A stretch of DNA of 64,000 bases from Trichocoleus desertorum NBK24 (lineage in GTDB: Bacteria; Cyanobacteriota; Cyanobacteriia; FACHB-46): contig NZ_CP116619.1 in the NCBI RefSeq assembly GCF_030409055.1, positions 3,511,628 to 3,575,627 of the forward strand, in the 5' to 3' direction. Shown here in pieces: positions 39,437-49,673 of this stretch. The position numbers and the translations under genes were made by a program. The notes beneath the pieces were generated by a model that saw nothing but the letters and a program-made list of their open reading frames with translations, did no database searches and was not told the origin of the DNA. Position 1 is the stretch's first letter. Each line of letters begins with the position of its first letter.

Positions 39437-39532
39437 GAGTTTCTGATAGTTTTGATAAACCCTTCGTGAGTGAGCAAAGACCTGGTCTCATTCCATACCA
39501 AGGGTTGCTCTTTTTTGCCTTTTCTAACTGCT

Positions 39533-41017
39533 ATGAACGACCCGTTCCCTACTGCTGACGCTGCCAACGTTTCAGAAGACAAGCTGAGTTTGAGTACTAA
39601 GCTGGCCTATGGCGCAGGAGATTTGGGGCCTGCAATCACAGCGAATTTGCTGGGCGTATTTTTGTTGTTCTTCTTTACTAGTGTGGCAGGGCTGGGGGCA
39701 GGGTTAGCTGCGAATATCCTGATGATTGGCAAGGTGTGGGATGCAGTCAACGACCCAGTCGTTGGAACATTGAGCGATCGCACGCAGAGTCGCTGGGGAC
39801 GGCGGCATCCTTGGATGATTTTTGGAGCCATACCCTTTGGTATTTTCTTTTTTTTGCAGTGGCTGGTGCCCCGCTTTAGCGATAACCCTGGAACCAATCA
39901 GTGGGGGCTGTTCTGGTATTATGTCGGCATCTCGGTTCTGTTCAACACGTTTTACACAGCCGTCAATCTACCGTATACCGCCTTAACGCCAGAGCTGACC
40001 CAGGACTACAACGAGCGCACCAACCTCAACAGTTTTCGCTTTGCCTTCTCCATTGGTGGCAGCATTCTCTCCTTGGTGCTAGCGCTCGCCGTCTTTAATA
40101 CAGTCAAGGCTGACTCCGCCCAGCAGTATCTTGTTCTTGCTGGGGTCTGCACCATCTTGTCAGTGTTGCCCATCTACTGGTGTGTTTGGGGTACCAGAAA
40201 ACGAGTGGCTGTCACTGAGCAGCAGCGCCAAGCGAGTAGTGATGGCACCGAACCTTTACCTTATTTGGAACAGCTACGCATTGTCTTTAGCAATCGCGCG
40301 TTTCTCTTTGTAGTTGGTATTTATCTTTGTTCTTGGATCGCGGTGCAAAATACAGTCGCGGTGATTCCTTATTTTGTCGTCAACTGGATGGGTCTGTCCC
40401 AAAACACTTTCACTCAGGTGGTGCTTGTTATTCAGATAACTGCCTTAATCATGCTGTTTGTTTGGAGTCGAGTGAGTGAGCGGCTGGGTAAAAAAGCGGT
40501 TTACTTCATGGGCATGAGCTTGTGGATCATCGCTGAAATTGCTTTATTTTTCCTTCAGCCAGGGCAAGTAGTGCTGATGTTTTTTCTGGCCTTTCTGGCG
40601 GGATTTGGCGTTTCGACGGCCTACCTGATTCCTTGGTCTATGATGCCCGACGTGATTGAACTAGACGAGCTACAAACTGGACAACGCCGTGAAGGAATTT
40701 TCTATGGCTTTATGGTGCTGCTCCAGAAAGTAGGACTCGCTTTCGGCTTATTTATGGTCGGCAAAGTTTTAGATGGAGCGGGGTTTATTGCGACGACTTC
40801 GGGCCAAGAGGCACCCCAGCAACCTGAATCTGCTTTATTGGCAATTCGCTACCTAGTGGGGCCGTTGCCCATCGCGTTTCTGCTTGTGGGATTAGGCTTG
40901 GCGTATTTTTATCCCATTACTCGCGAAGTTCATGCGGAAGTTCTCTTAAAGCTTAGAGAGCGCAAAGCGAACCAAGGTAAAAGTCCTCACTCCGATGCTC
41001 CTGAGTCAAGCCTTTAG
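39533..41017 (+). CDS. MFS transporter of the glycoside-pentoside-hexuronide (GPH) family
   Basis: A cation:sugar symporter-like permease with 12 membrane helices. The family opening is LSLSTKLAYGAGDLGPAITANLL, followed by the conserved DAVNDPVVGTLSDRTQSRWGRRHPW loop and the mid-protein FYGFMVLLQKVGLA. The MFS signature RWGRR matches melibiose-type carriers. The frame is open from 39470, but homology begins after the ATG at 39533 (494 residues). The stop codon TAG (41015-41017) overlaps the stop codon of the convergent histidine kinase. Substrate unknown. Confidence 0.9.
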   Translation: MNDPFPTADAANVSEDKLSLSTKLAYGAGDLGPAITANLLGVFLLFFFTSVAGLGAGLAANILMIGKVWDAVNDPVVGTLSDRTQSRWGRRHPWMIFGAIPFGIFFFLQWLVPRFSDNPGTNQWGLFWYYVGISVLFNTFYTAVNLPYTALTPELTQDYNERTNLNSFRFAFSIGGSILSLVLALAVFNTVKADSAQQYLVLAGVCTILSVLPIYWCVWGTRKRVAVTEQQRQASSDGTEPLPYLEQLRIVFSNRAFLFVVGIYLCSWIAVQNTVAVIPYFVVNWMGLSQNTFTQVVLVIQITALIMLFVWSRVSERLGKKAVYFMGMSLWIIAEIALFFLQPGQVVLMFFLAFLAGFGVSTAYLIPWSMMPDVIELDELQTGQRREGIFYGFMVLLQKVGLAFGLFMVGKVLDGAGFIATTSGQEAPQQPESALLAIRYLVGPLPIAFLLVGLGLAYFYPITREVHAEVLLKLRERKANQGKSPHSDAPESSL

Positions 41018-44000
41018 GTATCGCTGGAGGCTTCATAGCTGGGCTGAATCGGCAGGGTGAGCAAAAAGGTAGTCCATCCTGCTCCGCTCTCTACTCGAAT
41101 ATTGCCTTTTAGTCGCTCTGCCAGTCGTTGGACTAAAGCCAAACCCAAACCTGTGCCACCTTGCTTCCAGGGGTCAGCATTCGGCACTCGATAAAATTTT
41201 TCAAAGATCCGAGGCAGCTCGGCGGCAGGAATTTCTACTTGATTACGAAACGCCAAAGTGACGCTGGCTTTGTTTCCAAGTAGGGGATTGAGGGGCTGGT
41301 AGTCAACCTGGAGGACAATTTGGCCTTGGGGTGGGGTGTATTTGCAAGCGTTGTTGAGCAGTTCCGCAATGATCCGGTTGAGGCTGGCTCGATCTGACAC
41401 TAAGGGTGGAGGTTGTGACAAGAACTCTAAGCGCAGGATTTGTTGGTGCTGTTGCGATCGCGCCCGAAATGGTTCTAAGAGTTCGGGGAGCCAATCCTGC
41501 AAATTGAGTGACTCTACCAGAAACATGGGATAAGAAGCAGCTTCAAGCCGCTGTAAATCTAGCAGATCGTTGATCAGCTCCGCTTCACGGGTACATTCAG
41601 TCTGCAAAATCTGTAAGTAGCGTTCTTGCCGCTCTGGACTGGGCGCTATCCGTAGCATGTGAATCGCCATTTTCATGTTGGAGATGGGAGTCCGAAGCTC
41701 ATGAGACACGGTGCTGAGGAAGTCATCTTTGAGCCGATTCAGCATCTCCAGCTCTGCCACCTGAGTTTGAGCTTTTTGGTAAAGGCGGGCTTGGCGGATG
41801 GCGATCGCGCACTGGTTAGCCACTTGTTGCACTAAGCGAATTTCTAGCTCATTAAAGATTGAGCAATTGGAACGAAAAAGCCAGAGATCTCCGAGCACTC
41901 CTTGATCATCCAAGATCGGGCAAGCCAGGATGGTAGATTCATGCTGGATCTCTCGTACTGTAAAACCTGAATAGATAGAGAATTGTAAGTACTGACCTTG
42001 TAAAAGCCACTGGTAAACTTCTGGTCTATCAGCCATCTGAATGATGTGACCAACCCCTGAAGGGCCAGTGCTGTAATCATGACTGATGGTAGAAGCTGTG
42101 TGGTCAGCCTTGTAGAGTCCAGTGTCACAGCAGATCGTACCCAAGCCCTGAGCTAACTCCTTAACGGTTGTGCTCAAGATGTAGTCTTCATCCAAACTAT
42201 CGCGTACCTTATCGGTGATCCGCTTTAGCAGCGCTTCAAAATCTAGGGCTTGCTGTAGTTGCACCGTACGCTCTGCCACTTGCTGCTCTAGATCGGCATT
42301 TAAGCGTTGTACTTGCTCGTAAAGTTCCGATTGTTGAATCGCGATCGCTAGTTGAGTGACGAGTCTCTGGAGTGAGTCAATTTCAAACGTTTCCCAATGA
42401 CGCGATGCAGAGCATTGGTGAACACACAGCAAACCCCACAGTTGATCATTAGAAATGATGGGTACTAGCAGATTCGCTCGGATTTGAACGCGCTCTAGCA
42501 GTTCCAGATAGCAAGGCAGATAATTTGCTTGGTAAATATCATCAACCGCAGAAATCCGCCCCTGCTGATATTGGCTACTGTACTTTCGATCAAAACAGGG
42601 ATCTTGGAGTGCAACATCCAGCACGGATACACAATTCGATGCCACAGATTCCACAATGAACTGCCCAGATTGCCCAGGAATAATCTGATAAATGGCAGCC
42701 CGCTCAACTTGGAGCAGGTTCCGCACTTCAGTCACAGCGGTCTGGAGAATGTCATTGAGCTGGAGCGATCGCCGAATTCGCAAAGCAATATCAGCCAGTA
42801 AGCGATCGCGTTCCACCTGTTGCTGGATCTGTAGTTCTGCCCGCTTGCGTTCGGTAATATCCTTAAATGTGACAACCGCACCTTTCAAGACCCCTTGCTC
42901 GTGGATGGGCGTACTTGTGTATTCCACCGAAAACAGCGTGCCATCCTTGCGCCAAAACACATCTTCTAAGCCCTGCCGCACCACCCCATCCGCAAATACA
43001 GCATAGATTGGGCAGTCTGCTTCCAAATGAGGCGTTCCATCTGCCTTGGAGTGATGAATCATGGCATGCATGGGTTTTCCGATCAACTCCTCCGCTTCCC
43101 AACCCACCATCCTAGAAGCCGCTGGATTCACGAAAGTAACGCGGCCTTGAATATCTAAGCCGTAAATACCTTCCCCTGCCGAGTTTAGAATCAGCTGGTT
43201 TTGATGGCTGAGGTGTTCTAGCAACTCCTGCGATCGCTTTTGCTCGGTAATATCTGCAATCATCGCGATCGTGCCACTGACCTGTCCTTCAACGTTATAC
43301 AGCGGCCCGACAGACATGCTCAAATCAACCTGGGTATTATCCTGCCTTTGGCGATGCACCTGTAAACCCGTGAACGTCTTGCCCTGGCGTACATCTTGAT
43401 AGAGCTGTTCAAATTCGCCCTGTTTACCATCAGGCACAATGGGCAGGGGTTGCCCCACCACGGCTGCGTTTTCCCAGCCAAACAAAGCTTCGGCAGCAGC
43501 ATTCCATAGCTTCACATTACCCGCCTCATCCAGAGCCACAATAGCCAAGGGAGCAGCTTGGATCAACGCTTGCAAAACCTGATTCGTTTCCTGTAATACT
43601 GCCTCAATGCGTTGGCGCTGAGCAATCTCCGTCAGAAGCTGTTGCTCATGATTTTGCGTTTCTAAATTTACCTGTTGGCGGTATTGACGAAAAAATCGGC
43701 TCAGCCTTGGCGCTTCTTGCAGGAGTAGATCTAGATGTTTTTGCGCCCGTTGATCAAATTCATACGTAACTTCAGGATGCGTCTCTACCCAAACATGGCA
43801 CAACTTTATGTAAGCGAGAAGTGCGCTTAAATGGTTATAGTGGTAAGCCCCCAACACTCGACGCATCTCACTTTGGCAATCTTGGGAAAGATCCAAGTTT
43901 AGGAAGACGTAAATTGCCCCATTGAGAATACTTTCTTCCAGCAATGAGTTGGGTTCAGGCCATGTGATCAAAGGTACAGTTTGAGCCGCCAAAATATCAA

Positions 44001-44313
44001 GGTAAAATTTGATACTGGTTGCTTTAGGAGGCGGAGACTCTAATAACTTGACCACCTCAGAAGCTGACATTCCTAAGGGCCGCAAGGCGCAACTGTGGCA
44101 AATCATGCAGTAAGGAACGGCACAGTAGCGGGACAGGTAAGCTGCGAGCTTCTCTTTAAATAAAAGTGGTAAGGGATTGTTAAGATAAGCGAACAAAGTC
44201 TGTTGCCAGAGATTCTCTAAAATTTCTGGAGTTGGCTGAGCAGGAGCAAAGAAAGGTGGAAAAAAACCTAGCCGTCCTTCTATTTCTGCCTGGATTTGTT
44301 CGCTAGTTCGCAT
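41014..44313 (-). CDS. Hybrid-sensor histidine kinase: AhpD-like, PAS-PAS, CBCR-like GAF, GAF, HisKA-HATPase
   Basis: A 1099-residue soluble kinase. Order of domains: an N-terminal helical region with CxxC (C69/C72, plus C64 and C75) that resembles the AhpD/carboxymuconolactone decarboxylase fold; PAS at about 235-360; PAS with PAC at about 365-495; a GAF at about 505-665; coiled coil; a second GAF at about 690-845; then HisKA with the phospho-histidine H871 in TVSHELRTP and the ATPase with N box ELLNNACKYTP and G box GGTGLGLAL. The first GAF has DPCF (571-574) and a cysteine C601 followed by Tyr, both positions used for bilin attachment in DXCF cyanobacteriochromes. No response regulator gene lies adjacent. 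Confidence 0.9.
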   Translation of the reverse strand: MRTSEQIQAEIEGRLGFFPPFFAPAQPTPEILENLWQQTLFAYLNNPLPLLFKEKLAAYLSRYCAVPYCMICHSCALRPLGMSASEVVKLLESPPPKATSIKFYLDILAAQTVPLITWPEPNSLLEESILNGAIYVFLNLDLSQDCQSEMRRVLGAYHYNHLSALLAYIKLCHVWVETHPEVTYEFDQRAQKHLDLLLQEAPRLSRFFRQYRQQVNLETQNHEQQLLTEIAQRQRIEAVLQETNQVLQALIQAAPLAIVALDEAGNVKLWNAAAEALFGWENAAVVGQPLPIVPDGKQGEFEQLYQDVRQGKTFTGLQVHRQRQDNTQVDLSMSVGPLYNVEGQVSGTIAMIADITEQKRSQELLEHLSHQNQLILNSAGEGIYGLDIQGRVTFVNPAASRMVGWEAEELIGKPMHAMIHHSKADGTPHLEADCPIYAVFADGVVRQGLEDVFWRKDGTLFSVEYTSTPIHEQGVLKGAVVTFKDITERKRAELQIQQQVERDRLLADIALRIRRSLQLNDILQTAVTEVRNLLQVERAAIYQIIPGQSGQFIVESVASNCVSVLDVALQDPCFDRKYSSQYQQGRISAVDDIYQANYLPCYLELLERVQIRANLLVPIISNDQLWGLLCVHQCSASRHWETFEIDSLQRLVTQLAIAIQQSELYEQVQRLNADLEQQVAERTVQLQQALDFEALLKRITDKVRDSLDEDYILSTTVKELAQGLGTICCDTGLYKADHTASTISHDYSTGPSGVGHIIQMADRPEVYQWLLQGQYLQFSIYSGFTVREIQHESTILACPILDDQGVLGDLWLFRSNCSIFNELEIRLVQQVANQCAIAIRQARLYQKAQTQVAELEMLNRLKDDFLSTVSHELRTPISNMKMAIHMLRIAPSPERQERYLQILQTECTREAELINDLLDLQRLEAASYPMFLVESLNLQDWLPELLEPFRARSQQHQQILRLEFLSQPPPLVSDRASLNRIIAELLNNACKYTPPQGQIVLQVDYQPLNPLLGNKASVTLAFRNQVEIPAAELPRIFEKFYRVPNADPWKQGGTGLGLALVQRLAERLKGNIRVESGAGWTTFLLTLPIQPSYEASSDT

Positions 44314-44863: not shown

Positions 44864-45994
44864 ATGTCGCTTCACTTCAATCTTGCTCGTCGAGCTTTCC
44901 TGACCTCCGCGATCGCACTGACGGTCGGTCTGGCCTCTTGCCAACAAACTCCCCCCAGTGGTCCCCAAGGTGCTGGTGCGCCAGGTACTAATACTGCTGC
45001 CAACAACGCAGGTGGCGGTCAAACCATTGCTTTAAGCGGTGCTGGCGCTAGCTTCCCTGCTCCGTTGTATCAGCGCTGGTTCTCTGAATACAACAAGGAA
45101 AATCCCAACCTTCAAATCAGTTACCAATCGGTTGGTAGTGGTGCTGGCGTTAAGCAATTTCTGGCCCAAACCGTAGACTTCGGTGCTACAGATGCACCTC
45201 TCCAAGCAGAGGAGCGACAAGGATTCCCTGCTCAGCGCGGCCAAGCCATTCAAATTCCTATGACAGGTGGCGCGGTTGTGTTTGCCTACAATCTAGATGG
45301 TGTCGATAACCTCAGGCTATCGCGGGAAGCTTACTGCGGTATTGTTCAAGGTAATATCAAATCCTGGAATGATCCTCTCATTGCCCAAGCCAACCCCGGT
45401 GTAACTCTACCCAGCACCCCCCTAACTTTCGTTCACCGCTCTGATGGCAGCGGCACTACCTTTATCTTTACGACTCACCTCAAAGCTGCCTGCCCTAACT
45501 GGACTGCGGGTGCTGATAAGTCGATAGAATGGCCTGCTGGTTTCGTCGGCGCTAAAGGTAATGAAGGTATCACCGCTCAAGTACAGCAAACTCAAGGTGC
45601 TATCGGCTATACCGAGTACTCCTACGCCAAAGAGAACAACCTCAAATCAGCCGCAGTCCAAAATAAAGCAGGCGAATTTATCGCCCCCACCCCTGAATCA
45701 TCTGCTCAAGCTTTTGCAGGCGTGACAGTTCCAGAAGATTTTGCCTTGGTGATTCCTGATCCAGAAGCTAAAGAGGCTTACCCCATCAATGGTCTTACCT
45801 GGTTGCTGCTTTACAGTCAGTATGACGATCCAGCCAAAGCAGATGCGTTGAAAAACATGGTCAAGTGGGCACTCTCGAATGGGGATCAATATGCTCAAGA
45901 GTTGGGCTATGTGCCATTACCAGATGATCTAGCCAACCGAGTCGTTGCGACTCTTGATACCATTAAAGTTGCCGCAGCAACCCCAGCCCAGTAA
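44864..45994 (+). CDS. pstS: Phosphate-binding lipoprotein of the Pst transporter
   Basis: Captures phosphate in the periplasm and delivers it to PstCAB. It has a signal peptide with lipobox LASC (Cys26), a Gly/Pro/Asn-rich linker, and the binding domain starting ALSGAGASFPAPLYQRW. The ligand motifs GSGAGVKQF, GATDAPLQ and RSDGSGTTFIFT match the family. Start ATG at 44864 (MSLHFNLARRAFL) gives a twin-arginine-like RR followed by a hydrophobic core; export by Sec is more usual for the family. First gene of the pst operon; a terminator-like hairpin follows. Confidence 0.96.
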   Translation: MSLHFNLARRAFLTSAIALTVGLASCQQTPPSGPQGAGAPGTNTAANNAGGGQTIALSGAGASFPAPLYQRWFSEYNKENPNLQISYQSVGSGAGVKQFLAQTVDFGATDAPLQAEERQGFPAQRGQAIQIPMTGGAVVFAYNLDGVDNLRLSREAYCGIVQGNIKSWNDPLIAQANPGVTLPSTPLTFVHRSDGSGTTFIFTTHLKAACPNWTAGADKSIEWPAGFVGAKGNEGITAQVQQTQGAIGYTEYSYAKENNLKSAAVQNKAGEFIAPTPESSAQAFAGVTVPEDFALVIPDPEAKEAYPINGLTWLLLYSQYDDPAKADALKNMVKWALSNGDQYAQELGYVPLPDDLANRVVATLDTIKVAAATPAQ

Positions 45995-46005
45995 TCCATC
46001 TGGTT

Positions 46006-46046
46006 TTCCGTAGGCGGCTCTCCAGCTCCTACGGAACGTTTTTATT
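46006..46046 (+). terminator. Intercistronic terminator-like hairpin, pstS-pstC
   Basis: TTCCGTAGG (46006-46014) pairs with CCTACGGAA (46028-46036), followed by CGTTTTTATT. It lies 11 bases after the pstS stop and 14 bases before the pstC ATG. A partial terminator here would give more pstS than pstCAB mRNA, the usual need for a binding protein. Confidence 0.8.
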
Positions 46047-46059
46047 AGTAGAGGAAATC

Positions 46060-47013
46060 ATGACTTTGCTGGCCAGAGATTCTCAAGCACCACTTCGGGC
46101 GCAATCTCCAGTTTCCCGGTACATTGATATTGGCTTTAAGGGGCTTACGGGCTTCTTTGGCATTGCTATCGGTCTAACCCTACTGGCGATCGCTTGGCAG
46201 GTAGCGAACCAATCCTGGCCTGCAATTCAGGAATTTGGTTTGGGTTTTTTGACATCTACCACTTGGAACCCCGTTACTAACCAATACGGAGCTTGGCCAG
46301 CTATTTACGGCACTCTGGTCAGCTCTTTTATTGCCCTGCTCCTGGCGTTACCTGTTGGAGTGGGAGTGGCGCTGTTTCTGAGCGAAGATTTTTTACCTCC
46401 TCGTATCCAACAGCCTTTAGTTTTTCTGATTGAGTTACTCGCAGCCATTCCTAGTGTCGTGTACGGATTGTGGGGGATTTTCGTCCTGATTCCCTTTCTC
46501 GGCAAGCAGGCACTTTGGCTCCATCAAAATTTCGGCTGGATTCCGTTCTTTAGCACTCCGCCTAGAGGGCCAGGGATGTACATCGCAGGGGTCATTCTAG
46601 CGATTATGACTCTGCCAATTATTGCTGCAATTTCTCGCGATGCGTTAGTGTCAGTGCCGCCTGAACTTCGGCAAGCTTCCTATGGTTTGGGTGCAACTCG
46701 TTGGGAAACAATTTTTAAGGTTATTCTGCCGTCTGCTTTTTCCGGAATCGTTGGCGCTACAATGCTAGGCTTGGGACGAGCCTTGGGTGAAACAATGGCT
46801 GTCACGATGGTTATCGGCAACGCCAACACCGTCAGCCCATCAGTCTTTTCTCCAGCTACCACGATCGCCTCTCTTCTAGCGAATCAGTTCGCTGAGGCAT
46901 CTGGATTACAAATTTCTTCGTTGATGTACACAGCCCTAATCTTGTTTGGCTTAACGCTAGTAGTGAATATTCTGGCTGAAGTCTTAGTACGGACGATGCG
47001 GCAAAGCTTGTAG
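46060..47013 (+). CDS. pstC: Phosphate ABC transporter permease PstC
   Basis: One of the two membrane subunits for high-affinity phosphate uptake. It has six helices, starting after an approximately 20-residue polar N-terminus (GLTGFFGIAIGLTLLAIAW). The permease loop is readable as LRQASYGLGATRWETIFKVILPSAF, and RALGETMAVTMVIGNA is the Pst-family signature after it. Length 317 is normal. Start ATG at 46060 has AGAGGAAATC just upstream. The gap to pstA is 55 bases. Confidence 0.96.
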   Translation: MTLLARDSQAPLRAQSPVSRYIDIGFKGLTGFFGIAIGLTLLAIAWQVANQSWPAIQEFGLGFLTSTTWNPVTNQYGAWPAIYGTLVSSFIALLLALPVGVGVALFLSEDFLPPRIQQPLVFLIELLAAIPSVVYGLWGIFVLIPFLGKQALWLHQNFGWIPFFSTPPRGPGMYIAGVILAIMTLPIIAAISRDALVSVPPELRQASYGLGATRWETIFKVILPSAFSGIVGATMLGLGRALGETMAVTMVIGNANTVSPSVFSPATTIASLLANQFAEASGLQISSLMYTALILFGLTLVVNILAEVLVRTMRQSL

Positions 47014-47068
47014 TTTTACCGCTTAATTGCAGATTTAGTCGGAATCAGATCTAGCAAATAGTGCTTAT

Positions 47069-47959
47069 ATGGCTAATCTTCCACCTTCCTTATCGTCGGA
47101 GCCTTCGTCTCGCAGCTTGATGCGATCGCCGACTTCACCCCGGACTCTGTTTTCCACAGCCATGACTGGGTTGGTGTTTTTGGCAGCGGCGATCGCTTTA
47201 CTACCTTTGATCGCAGTGCTCACCTACGTCATCATCAATGGTGCGGGTCGCCTGAATCTAGACCTGTTTACCCAATTGCCGCCCCCCCCATTAGTGAAGG
47301 GAGGTGGGTTTGGTAATGCCATCGTTGGCACCTTGCTCACCGTCGGCATTGGAGCCGCTATCAGTATTCCGGTCGGAATCTTAGGGGCAATCTTTCTCTC
47401 AGAGTTTGCTAGAGATACCACTCTCGCCTCTTGGATTGACTTCTTCAACAATGTGCTCAGCGGCGTGCCTTCCATTGTGGTCGGTGTTTTCGCCTACGGC
47501 GTTGTAGTACTCACTACAGGCACCTTCTCAGCAGTCGCGGGGGGTGTTGCCCTAGCCGTTCTGATGTTGCCCATTATTGTTAGAACCTCAGCAGAGTCCC
47601 TTGAATCAGTTCCAAATGAAACTCGCCAAGCTGCCTTGGGTTTGGGCGCGACCCAATTCCAAACTGTGACACGTGTCGTTTTTCCTGCGGCGATCCCAGC
47701 CATTCTGACAGGTGTAATGTTGTCCGTTGCGCGGGCTGCGGGTGAAACTGCTCCGCTTATCTTTACGGCTTTGTTTAGCCAGTACTGGGCTCAGGGTATT
47801 ATGCAACCAACCCCGACCCTATCCGTACTGATTTTTAATTACGCCATCGCACCTTACAAAAATCAGCAAGAACTTGCTTGGGCTGGATCACTAGTTCTTC
47901 TTACCTTAGTGTTAGTTACCAGCATTCTGGCTCGTTGGATCACTCGGCGCAAAAGTTAA
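47069..47959 (+). CDS. pstA: Phosphate ABC transporter permease PstA
   Basis: The partner of PstC. Six helices, with the EAA loop as TRQAALGLGATQFQTVTRVVFPAAIP and the family motif ARAAGETAPLIFTALFSQYW. A Ser/Pro-rich hydrophilic N-terminus of about 30 residues precedes the first helix. The first periplasmic loop reads LPPPPLVKGGGFG; PPLVKGG is also the translation of a common dispersed repeat, but length and context here are normal for PstA, so I do not call an insertion. Start ATG at 47069. The gap to pstB is 281 bases, long for an operon. Confidence 0.96.
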   Translation: MANLPPSLSSEPSSRSLMRSPTSPRTLFSTAMTGLVFLAAAIALLPLIAVLTYVIINGAGRLNLDLFTQLPPPPLVKGGGFGNAIVGTLLTVGIGAAISIPVGILGAIFLSEFARDTTLASWIDFFNNVLSGVPSIVVGVFAYGVVVLTTGTFSAVAGGVALAVLMLPIIVRTSAESLESVPNETRQAALGLGATQFQTVTRVVFPAAIPAILTGVMLSVARAAGETAPLIFTALFSQYWAQGIMQPTPTLSVLIFNYAIAPYKNQQELAWAGSLVLLTLVLVTSILARWITRRKS

Positions 47960-48130
47960 TTAGGGATTGATTAATTTTACTTAGCCGCGTGAAAAGAAAG
48001 GTTGAATAGAATGTAAGATAGCGGTGCGTACTCATAGATGTTTGATGTTTGCGATCGCCTGCTTTGAGAGTTGGCTGCACCCGGAGATTTGGGTCTCAAG
48101 TTTATGACTTAATTGCTAAATATGTTTGAT

Positions 48131-48162
48131 AGCAACGCTTTGCCATCTAAAGCAAGGTTGCT
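48131..48162 (+). other. Hairpin in the pstA-pstB gap
   Basis: AGCAACGCTTT (48131-48141) can pair with AAAGC (48149-48153) plus GTTGCT (48157-48162) with a 3-base bulge. No T-run follows directly. It could be a processing site or a weak terminator within the pst operon. Confidence 0.45.
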
Positions 48163-48240
48163 GGCTTTAATCTGAATACAAAGCATTCTGAACCATCTCA
48201 ACGACTTAGAGGCGAACTAAATCCATACTTGGGTTGATTT

Positions 48241-49047
48241 ATGCATACTAATACTCCAGTTGCCAGTCAAACTGAAACCGTTCTACACACAGAAAATCTA
48301 AATGTGTACTACGGCAATTTCCGGGCTCTCCGCAATATCTCAATGGATATCGCCAAAAACCAAATCACAGCCCTCATTGGTCCCTCTGGCTGCGGTAAAA
48401 GTACCTTACTTCGATGCTTCAATCGCCTCAATGACTTGATCAAAGGGTTTAGAGCAGACGGTAAAGTTTATTACCATACTCAAAACCTTTACGCTTCAGA
48501 AGTTGACCCCGTAGAAGTAAGACGCCGGATTGGCATGGTGTTTCAAAAGCCCAATCCTTTTCCTAAATCAATCTACGATAATGTCGCCTTTGGTCCTCGG
48601 CTGGTGGGTTACAAAGGTGACATGGATGAGCTAGTCGAGCAATCGTTGAAGCAAGCAGCCATTTGGGATGAAGTCAAAGACAAACTCAAAGACAGTGGCT
48701 TAGCTTTGTCCGGTGGTCAACAACAACGGTTGTGTATTGCCCGCGCGATCGCAGTTCAGCCCGATATCATCTTGATGGATGAACCTGCTTCAGCGCTGGA
48801 CCCCATTTCTACCCTCCGCATTGAAGATTTAATGCAGGAGCTAAAGCAGCAATATACAATCGTGATCGTGACGCACAACATGCAGCAAGCGTCTCGTGCC
48901 TCCGACCGAACTGCTTTCTTCAACGTTGAAGAAAATGAGAAAGGCGGACGCAGCGGCTACTTGGTTGAATACGATCGCACTGAAATTATTTTCCAAAGTC
49001 CGCAACAGCAGATTACTCAAGAATATGTCAGCGGTCGCTTCGGTTAA
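48241..49047 (+). CDS. pstB: Phosphate ABC transporter ATP-binding protein PstB
   Basis: The ATPase that drives phosphate uptake through PstCA. Walker [11 protein letters not shown]-loop [14 protein letters not shown] signature [15 protein letters not shown], Walker [13 protein letters not shown] and the switch histidine in [10 protein letters not shown] are intact. Length 268 is slightly longer than E. coli PstB because of a few N-terminal residues. Start ATG at 48241. No phoU or pho regulator gene follows in the window. Confidence 0.97.
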
Positions 49048-49277
49048 CCAGCGCTAGCTCTACGCTTGAGTGTTAGCAAACCTGAGCTGACAAATTTGAA
49101 TCGTTGCACTTAATTTCTGTATCCAGCAAAATCTTTTTTGTCTGGATTATTTTTTTGGGAGAATTTCGTATTTGCGCTTGATACCTATCTCTAAGGAAGG
49201 TGATCCCCTAGTACCGATACAAGATAGGATTACGTTAATTTTGTTATTCAATCCTGTTCTTTTTCGGTTAATAAATT

Positions 49278-49673
49278 ATGAAGCGTTATCTATCACGTTT
49301 GCTAGCTTTGATTTTAGTGGTTACGGTGGGTCTGACAGGATGCAGTGGTGGCGACCAGCTCAGCGGCAACTATCGTCAAGATACCCTTGCTCTCGTTAAC
49401 AGTTTGAGAGAAACCATTGAGCTGCCCCAAGATGCTCCTAATCGCGTTCCCCTCCAAACAGAAGCTCGGCAAAAAATCAATGACTTCGCCTCCCGGTACC
49501 GCCGCGATAGCTCCGTAACCAAGCTTAGTTCTTTCACCACGATGAGAACAGCCTTAAATGCTCTGGCTGGTCACTATAGCTCTTACCCCAACCGTCCTCT
49601 ACCCCAGAAGCTCAAAGACCGTCTGAAGCAGGAGCTGACTCAAGTGGAGACGTCTCTCAACCGAGGTGCTTAA
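49278..49673 (+). CDS. psb27: Photosystem II assembly lipoprotein Psb27
   Basis: Binds lumenal photosystem II (CP43 side) during assembly and repair. It starts with a signal peptide and lipobox LTGC (Cys22, in VTVGLTGCSGG), then a four-helix domain with the family wording QDTLALVNSLRETIELP, YRRDSSVTKLSSFTTM and the highly conserved ALAGHYSSYPNRPLP. Length 131 is normal. Start ATG at 49278. Monocistronic, after the pst operon and before a convergent gene. This gene alone marks the genome as that of an oxygenic phototroph. Confidence 0.96.
   Translation: MKRYLSRLLALILVVTVGLTGCSGGDQLSGNYRQDTLALVNSLRETIELPQDAPNRVPLQTEARQKINDFASRYRRDSSVTKLSSFTTMRTALNALAGHYSSYPNRPLPQKLKDRLKQELTQVETSLNRGA

Follow-up and report, generated by a model that had tools for sequence, protein, structure and literature searches.

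The window, by which we mean the whole 64,000-nucleotide stretch of the Trichocoleus desertorum NBK24 genome that was analysed, contains an open reading frame on its minus strand (41014–44313 in the ORF listing) coding for a sensor histidine kinase of 1099 amino acids. Genes for a phosphate-type ABC transporter (a PBP, two permeases and an ATPase; 44864–49047) lie on the plus strand, divergent from the kinase. Pfam matches, together with a predicted fold for the N-terminal domain, were used to establish the order of the kinase domains as AhpD-like, PAS, PAS, GAF1 (the cyanobacteriochrome, or CBCR, domain), GAF2, HisKA and HATPase, all encoded on the minus strand. The AhpD-like domain (residues 1–218; 43660–44313), identified using AlphaFold2 and VIA, is followed by two PAS domains detected by Pfam (residues 247–356, 43246–43575, and residues 376–493, 42835–43188), by GAF1 (residues 505–665; 42319–42801), by GAF2 (residues 711–840; 41794–42183; Pfam GAF_3 and sequence), and by the Pfam HisKA domain (residues 862–925; 41539–41730), in which His871 is the phospho-acceptor within the motif STVSHELRTP. 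The C-terminal HATPase_c domain (residues 974–1090; 41044–41394) was likewise found with Pfam, and its boxes were located by alignment. Two further species in the genus have orthologues that match the kinase along its full length (94% and 80% identity), while none was found beyond the genus at E ≤ 1e-240 among 390 genomes of the class, a collection in which the order is represented by this genus alone.

The earlier note had read 42319–42801 as a cyanobacteriochrome-like GAF domain of this kinase, and the Pfam match to GAF (1.5e-22) bears out that assignment. Its account of the motifs was exact in every position: a DPCF motif spans residues 571–574 (42592–42603, minus strand), with the second Cys at Cys573 (codon 42595–42597), and the canonical bilin-attachment Cys is Cys601, followed by Tyr602 (42508–42513, minus strand; codons 42511–42513 and 42508–42510), in the setting GRISAVDDIYQANYLPCYLELLERVQIRANLLVPI. 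When GAF1 was compared with PDB sequences using phmmer, the top 18 matches were all bilin-binding GAF domains; the best was the photosensory kinase PPHK (6oap; 6e-51), after which came RcaE, NpR6012g4, miRFP670nano, TePixJ, AnPixJ and Slr1393, among others. An AlphaFold2 model of GAF1, built from an alignment of 26 relatives, had a mean pLDDT of 87.7, and PPHK was again ranked first when this model was compared with known structures using Foldseek and VIA-align 2 (50% identity, Z 24.4). The note had named a position of Cys601 away from the bilin-attachment helix as the result that would speak against its reading; in the model this residue (model residue 97) sits in the first turn of that helix, residues 96–104.

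The motif Asp and Phe and the canonical Cys are invariant across the 26 aligned GAF domains, in which the second Cys is conserved at 90% or more, and the other two species in the genus retain both motifs, with both cysteines (GAF identity 94% and 83%). The dN/dS of GAF1 is 0.07–0.10, similar to that of the ATPase domain, and GAF1 is under strong purifying selection. For the structure of miRFP670nano, D56, F59, Y67, R71, T84, Y87 and H117 have been named as residues around the bilin (PMC6336887), and its attachment Cys has the number 86. A gapless phmmer alignment places these bilin-site residues at D571, F574, Y582, R586, L599, Y602 and H632 of the kinase, and the attachment Cys at C601, so that seven of the eight bilin-contact residues are identical, the sole change being T84 to L599.

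Judged from the sequence, the combination of DPCF and Cys601 is far beyond chance, since it aligns with solved CBCRs (6e-51) and is kept in two other species. GAF1, as assessed by phmmer, predicted fold and tree, almost certainly belongs to the DXCF-type CBCR family, as the note had proposed, with both cysteines correctly placed; such a domain makes it very probable that the kinase is a photoreceptor, which the note had raised as a possibility. A red/green (XRG) type was ruled out: the position of the Trp in the WXDXXL motif, two residues before the motif Asp, is occupied by Leu569, and Cys573 is present. It is because Cys573 lies within a DXCF motif and the XRG Trp is absent that GAF1 is placed with the DXCF CBCRs. 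GAF2 was also considered as a second photosensor and rejected, as its sequence contains neither a DXCF motif nor the canonical Cys; it is an ordinary GAF domain.

GAF1 resembles TePixJ (4glq, 3vv4) in its GAF fold (Z 22.4–22.7, VIA-align 2), in having DPCF with the second Cys and a canonical Cys where the attachment helix begins, and in the Leu and Asn at the positions of TePixJ Leu527 and Asn535. The two differ in that GAF1 has Tyr rather than His after the canonical Cys and Leu at the Gln526 position; their identity is only about a third, and the output is a kinase here but a chemoreceptor in TePixJ. PPHK, a dual sensor histidine kinase, is the closest solved domain in both sequence and fold and is also a kinase photosensor, although it carries DQYF, without the second Cys, and Cys-His (CH) at the attachment site. 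NpF2164g5 and the engineered miRFP670nano (NpR3784 with H87Y) share the Cys-Tyr (CY) of GAF1; unlike GAF1, however, miRFP670nano has DRYF and lacks the second Cys of DXCF, and NpF2164g5 is classed as a red/green (XRG) CBCR (PMC7504144, PMC9378818). GAF1 is a further member of the well-known two-cysteine type, and the domain itself is ordinary.

The genome encodes a single heme oxygenase and a single bilin reductase, the latter identified as PcyA by a curated cut-off (367.7 bits against 206); phycocyanobilin (PCB) is therefore the available bilin. From sequence, family, predicted fold and conservation, together with these enzymes, we infer that GAF1 binds a chromophore. In some DXCF CBCRs, PCB is retained and the photoproduct is yellow or orange. 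In typical members of the family, the DXCF Cys forms a second link at C10 and participates in the isomerisation of PCB to PVB, and the protein absorbs blue light in its dark state and green light once illuminated (PMC11284453). Leu606 of the kinase occupies the TePixJ Leu527 position, where Leu is associated with blue-shifted absorption (PMC7504144). Because GAF1 is of the DXCF type and has this Leu, a blue-absorbing dark state is likely, and the violet/blue-to-green colour suggested in the earlier note is plausible, but sequence does not fix the colour of the photoproduct, as DXCF CBCRs may carry either unaltered PCB or the PVB made from it, which shifts the photoproduct.

We consider it quite probable that GAF1 acts as a DXCF photoreceptor with a blue dark state and a green-to-orange photoproduct, and that it controls the kinase. 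GAF1 would bind PCB through Cys601 and, in the dark, Cys573 would add to C10 of the bilin to give the blue-absorbing state; light would then flip the 15,16 double bond, upon which the second link would open, yielding a photoproduct that absorbs in the green to orange. Where His is usual, GAF1 has Tyr602, which probably stacks on the bilin and tunes the yield, the dark reversion or the conversion of PCB to PVB. The signal would pass along a helical linker to HisKA and HATPase, joined by inputs from the AhpD-like, PAS and GAF2 domains. Like chromophore binding, the colours, the role of Tyr602 and the control of the kinase by GAF1 are inferred.

The note had singled out the Tyr beside the attachment Cys as unusual. 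This was not upheld: about a third of the DXC-type GAF domains collected have Tyr at this site, as do half of the nearest. The collection comprised 121 unique DXC-type GAF domains taken from 142 loci, of which 75 have CH and 42 have CY, and Tyr602 as a rare feature was ruled out on this count. By set, CY was found in 3/10 domains of the genome itself (one of the ten being a doubtful long-branch row), in 15/30 of the nearest relatives and in 25/83 from named genomes, three sets that were retrieved by similarity to the window GAF and may overstate the global frequency. A fourth set, added against this bias, was retrieved with a CH protein, TePixJ, and may understate it (3/72). The frequency of CY is, across these sequence sets, lineage-dependent, at about 4% near TePixJ, 30% among the named genomes and 50% around GAF1. 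For 158 GAF domains, a quick maximum-likelihood tree (LG+G4, with some long rows, used solely for the starred nodes near the window and for a lower bound on changes) indicated that CH and CY have interchanged at least 24 times, and placed GAF1 in a starred five-member clade (98) in which all members, from three families, have DXCF and CY.

Published CBCRs also include CY (PMC9378818, PMC6336887): it occurs naturally in NpF2164g5, and fluorescence improves when it is engineered in (PMC9378818), while the Tyr of miRFP670nano stacks parallel to the bilin (PMC6336887). On the basis of the set counts, the interchanges in the tree and these published cases, a Tyr beside the attachment Cys is a variant that recurs and whose physical role is known. 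The presence of both cysteines together, the point to which the note had drawn attention, was likewise not upheld as notable. DXCF with CY is a common state that switches to and from CH in evolution rather than the oddity of one protein, and the question it raises is what the Tyr does beside the attachment Cys when the second Cys is also present. Within the genome itself, GAF1 has matches at 41 places, about 10 of them DXC-type and three with CY (L001, L002 and L010); a related kinase (L011; G000:C1:3151341-3151814) has a CBCR-like GAF domain with PPLE instead of DXCF and PFCLNLL at the attachment site.

The published cases bear on a different role for GAF1, in which it binds bilin via Cys601 but the stacked Tyr602 acts as a clamp on the chromophore, making the domain fluorescent and poor in photoconversion, so that the other inputs mainly drive the kinase. 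Photoconversion could be weak because strong fluorescence accompanies a Tyr at this site in NpF2164g5 and engineered CBCRs (PMC9378818, PMC6336887): NpF2164g5, the red/green CBCR in which CY occurs naturally, is highly fluorescent and a His-to-Tyr change in SPI1085g3 increased both binding and fluorescence (PMC9378818), and it is H87Y that brings about the parallel stacking in miRFP670nano (PMC6336887). These fluorescent proteins, however, either lack the DXCF Cys or are engineered, and the occurrence of DXCF with CY across many lineages, with its repeated exchange with CH, fits a working variant. The strong purifying selection on GAF1 also argues against clamping, which we regard as unlikely. 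It is very improbable that GAF1 retains CBCR wording but has lost bilin binding, its two cysteines serving as a thiol or metal switch: the attachment Cys has been lost in several cyanobacterial GAF domains of the same sets, and the kinase does carry a Cys-rich AhpD-like domain, but both cysteines, the Asp and seven of the eight pocket residues are intact in GAF1, all three species and the five-member clade retain both motifs, and the dN/dS is low.

Residues 1–218 matched no Pfam family. The AlphaFold2 model of this region had a pLDDT of 94.9, and VIA aligned it with 6k40 over 167 residues (Z 14.3, rmsd 3.0 Å) and, at Z about 14, with 3c1l and 2pfx; the top 13 structural rows were all AhpD/CMD-type entries, a match to which the caution that VIA carries for helical folds applies. 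Weak sequence matches agree with this fold, namely TIGR01926 in 7/30 homologues of the domain (best 5e-4) and a YCxxxH motif aligned with 6k40 (E 0.11). The region can be confidently assigned, by modelling, a predicted AhpD-like all-helical fold. It contains Cys64, Cys69, Cys72, His73, Cys75 and the pair Cys172-His173; across 30 homologues there is no variation at Cys72, Cys75 or His173, and conservation is 90% or more at Cys64, Cys69, His73 and Cys172. When aligned with the relay and CxxC motif of peroxidase-related proteins (PMC3141380), Glu54, Tyr68, Cys69 and His73 are spaced like the AhpD proton-relay residues, and the catalytic Cys-X-X-Cys is absent, the position of its first Cys being taken by Val66. 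The domain shares its fold with AhpD-like peroxidase-related proteins (6k40, 3c1l, 2oyo; PMC3141380), but differs from them in Val66, in the additional Cys64, Cys72, Cys75 and Cys172-His173, and in being fused to signalling proteins rather than standing as a free enzyme.

This N-terminal domain was found in 28/390 cyanobacterial genomes, nearly always within long open frames; in the ten proteins scanned, it precedes PAS, GAF, kinase, receiver or GGDEF-EAL domains. The genome itself has two more copies (L055 and L056). Of 20 full-length proteins with the domain that were taken from other genomes, six contain a close CBCR-like GAF domain as well, so that light and AhpD-like input are, by domain content, a recurring pairing in cyanobacterial signalling proteins. 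A 2026 review of cyanobacterial redox signalling makes no mention of AhpD. We suggest tentatively, at somewhat less than even likelihood, that the kinase integrates light with thiol-redox state (or metal) by combining the DXCF photosensor with the Cys cluster of the AhpD fold (C-x4-C-x2-C-H-x-C plus C172-H173), beside the pst genes. An AhpD-fold input domain that has no Pfam model and is widespread before light-sensing kinases suggests that cyanobacteria may read light and redox state jointly.

As to output, the kinase has His871 and both the N and G2 boxes, but in all three orthologues the G1 box is RNQVEIP instead of DxGxG; in relatives of the kinase group it is often NSGVEIP. Because of this departure, the activity of the output is not certain. 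All three species have the divergent pst-type operon beside the kinase gene, which hints at a link between the kinase and phosphate. A dedicated phosphate kinase was tried as a candidate and rejected (NCBIfam PnpS, 215 bits against a cut-off of 400), the best-matching stretch being the common kinase core, residues 851–1088. In the neighbourhood, pstS-, pstC-, pstA- and pstB-like genes are followed by a Psb27 gene (44864–49673, plus strand), in the same order in all three species. On its other side, the kinase gene meets a convergent MFS transporter gene (39470–41017), their stop codons overlapping by 4 bases (41014–41017).
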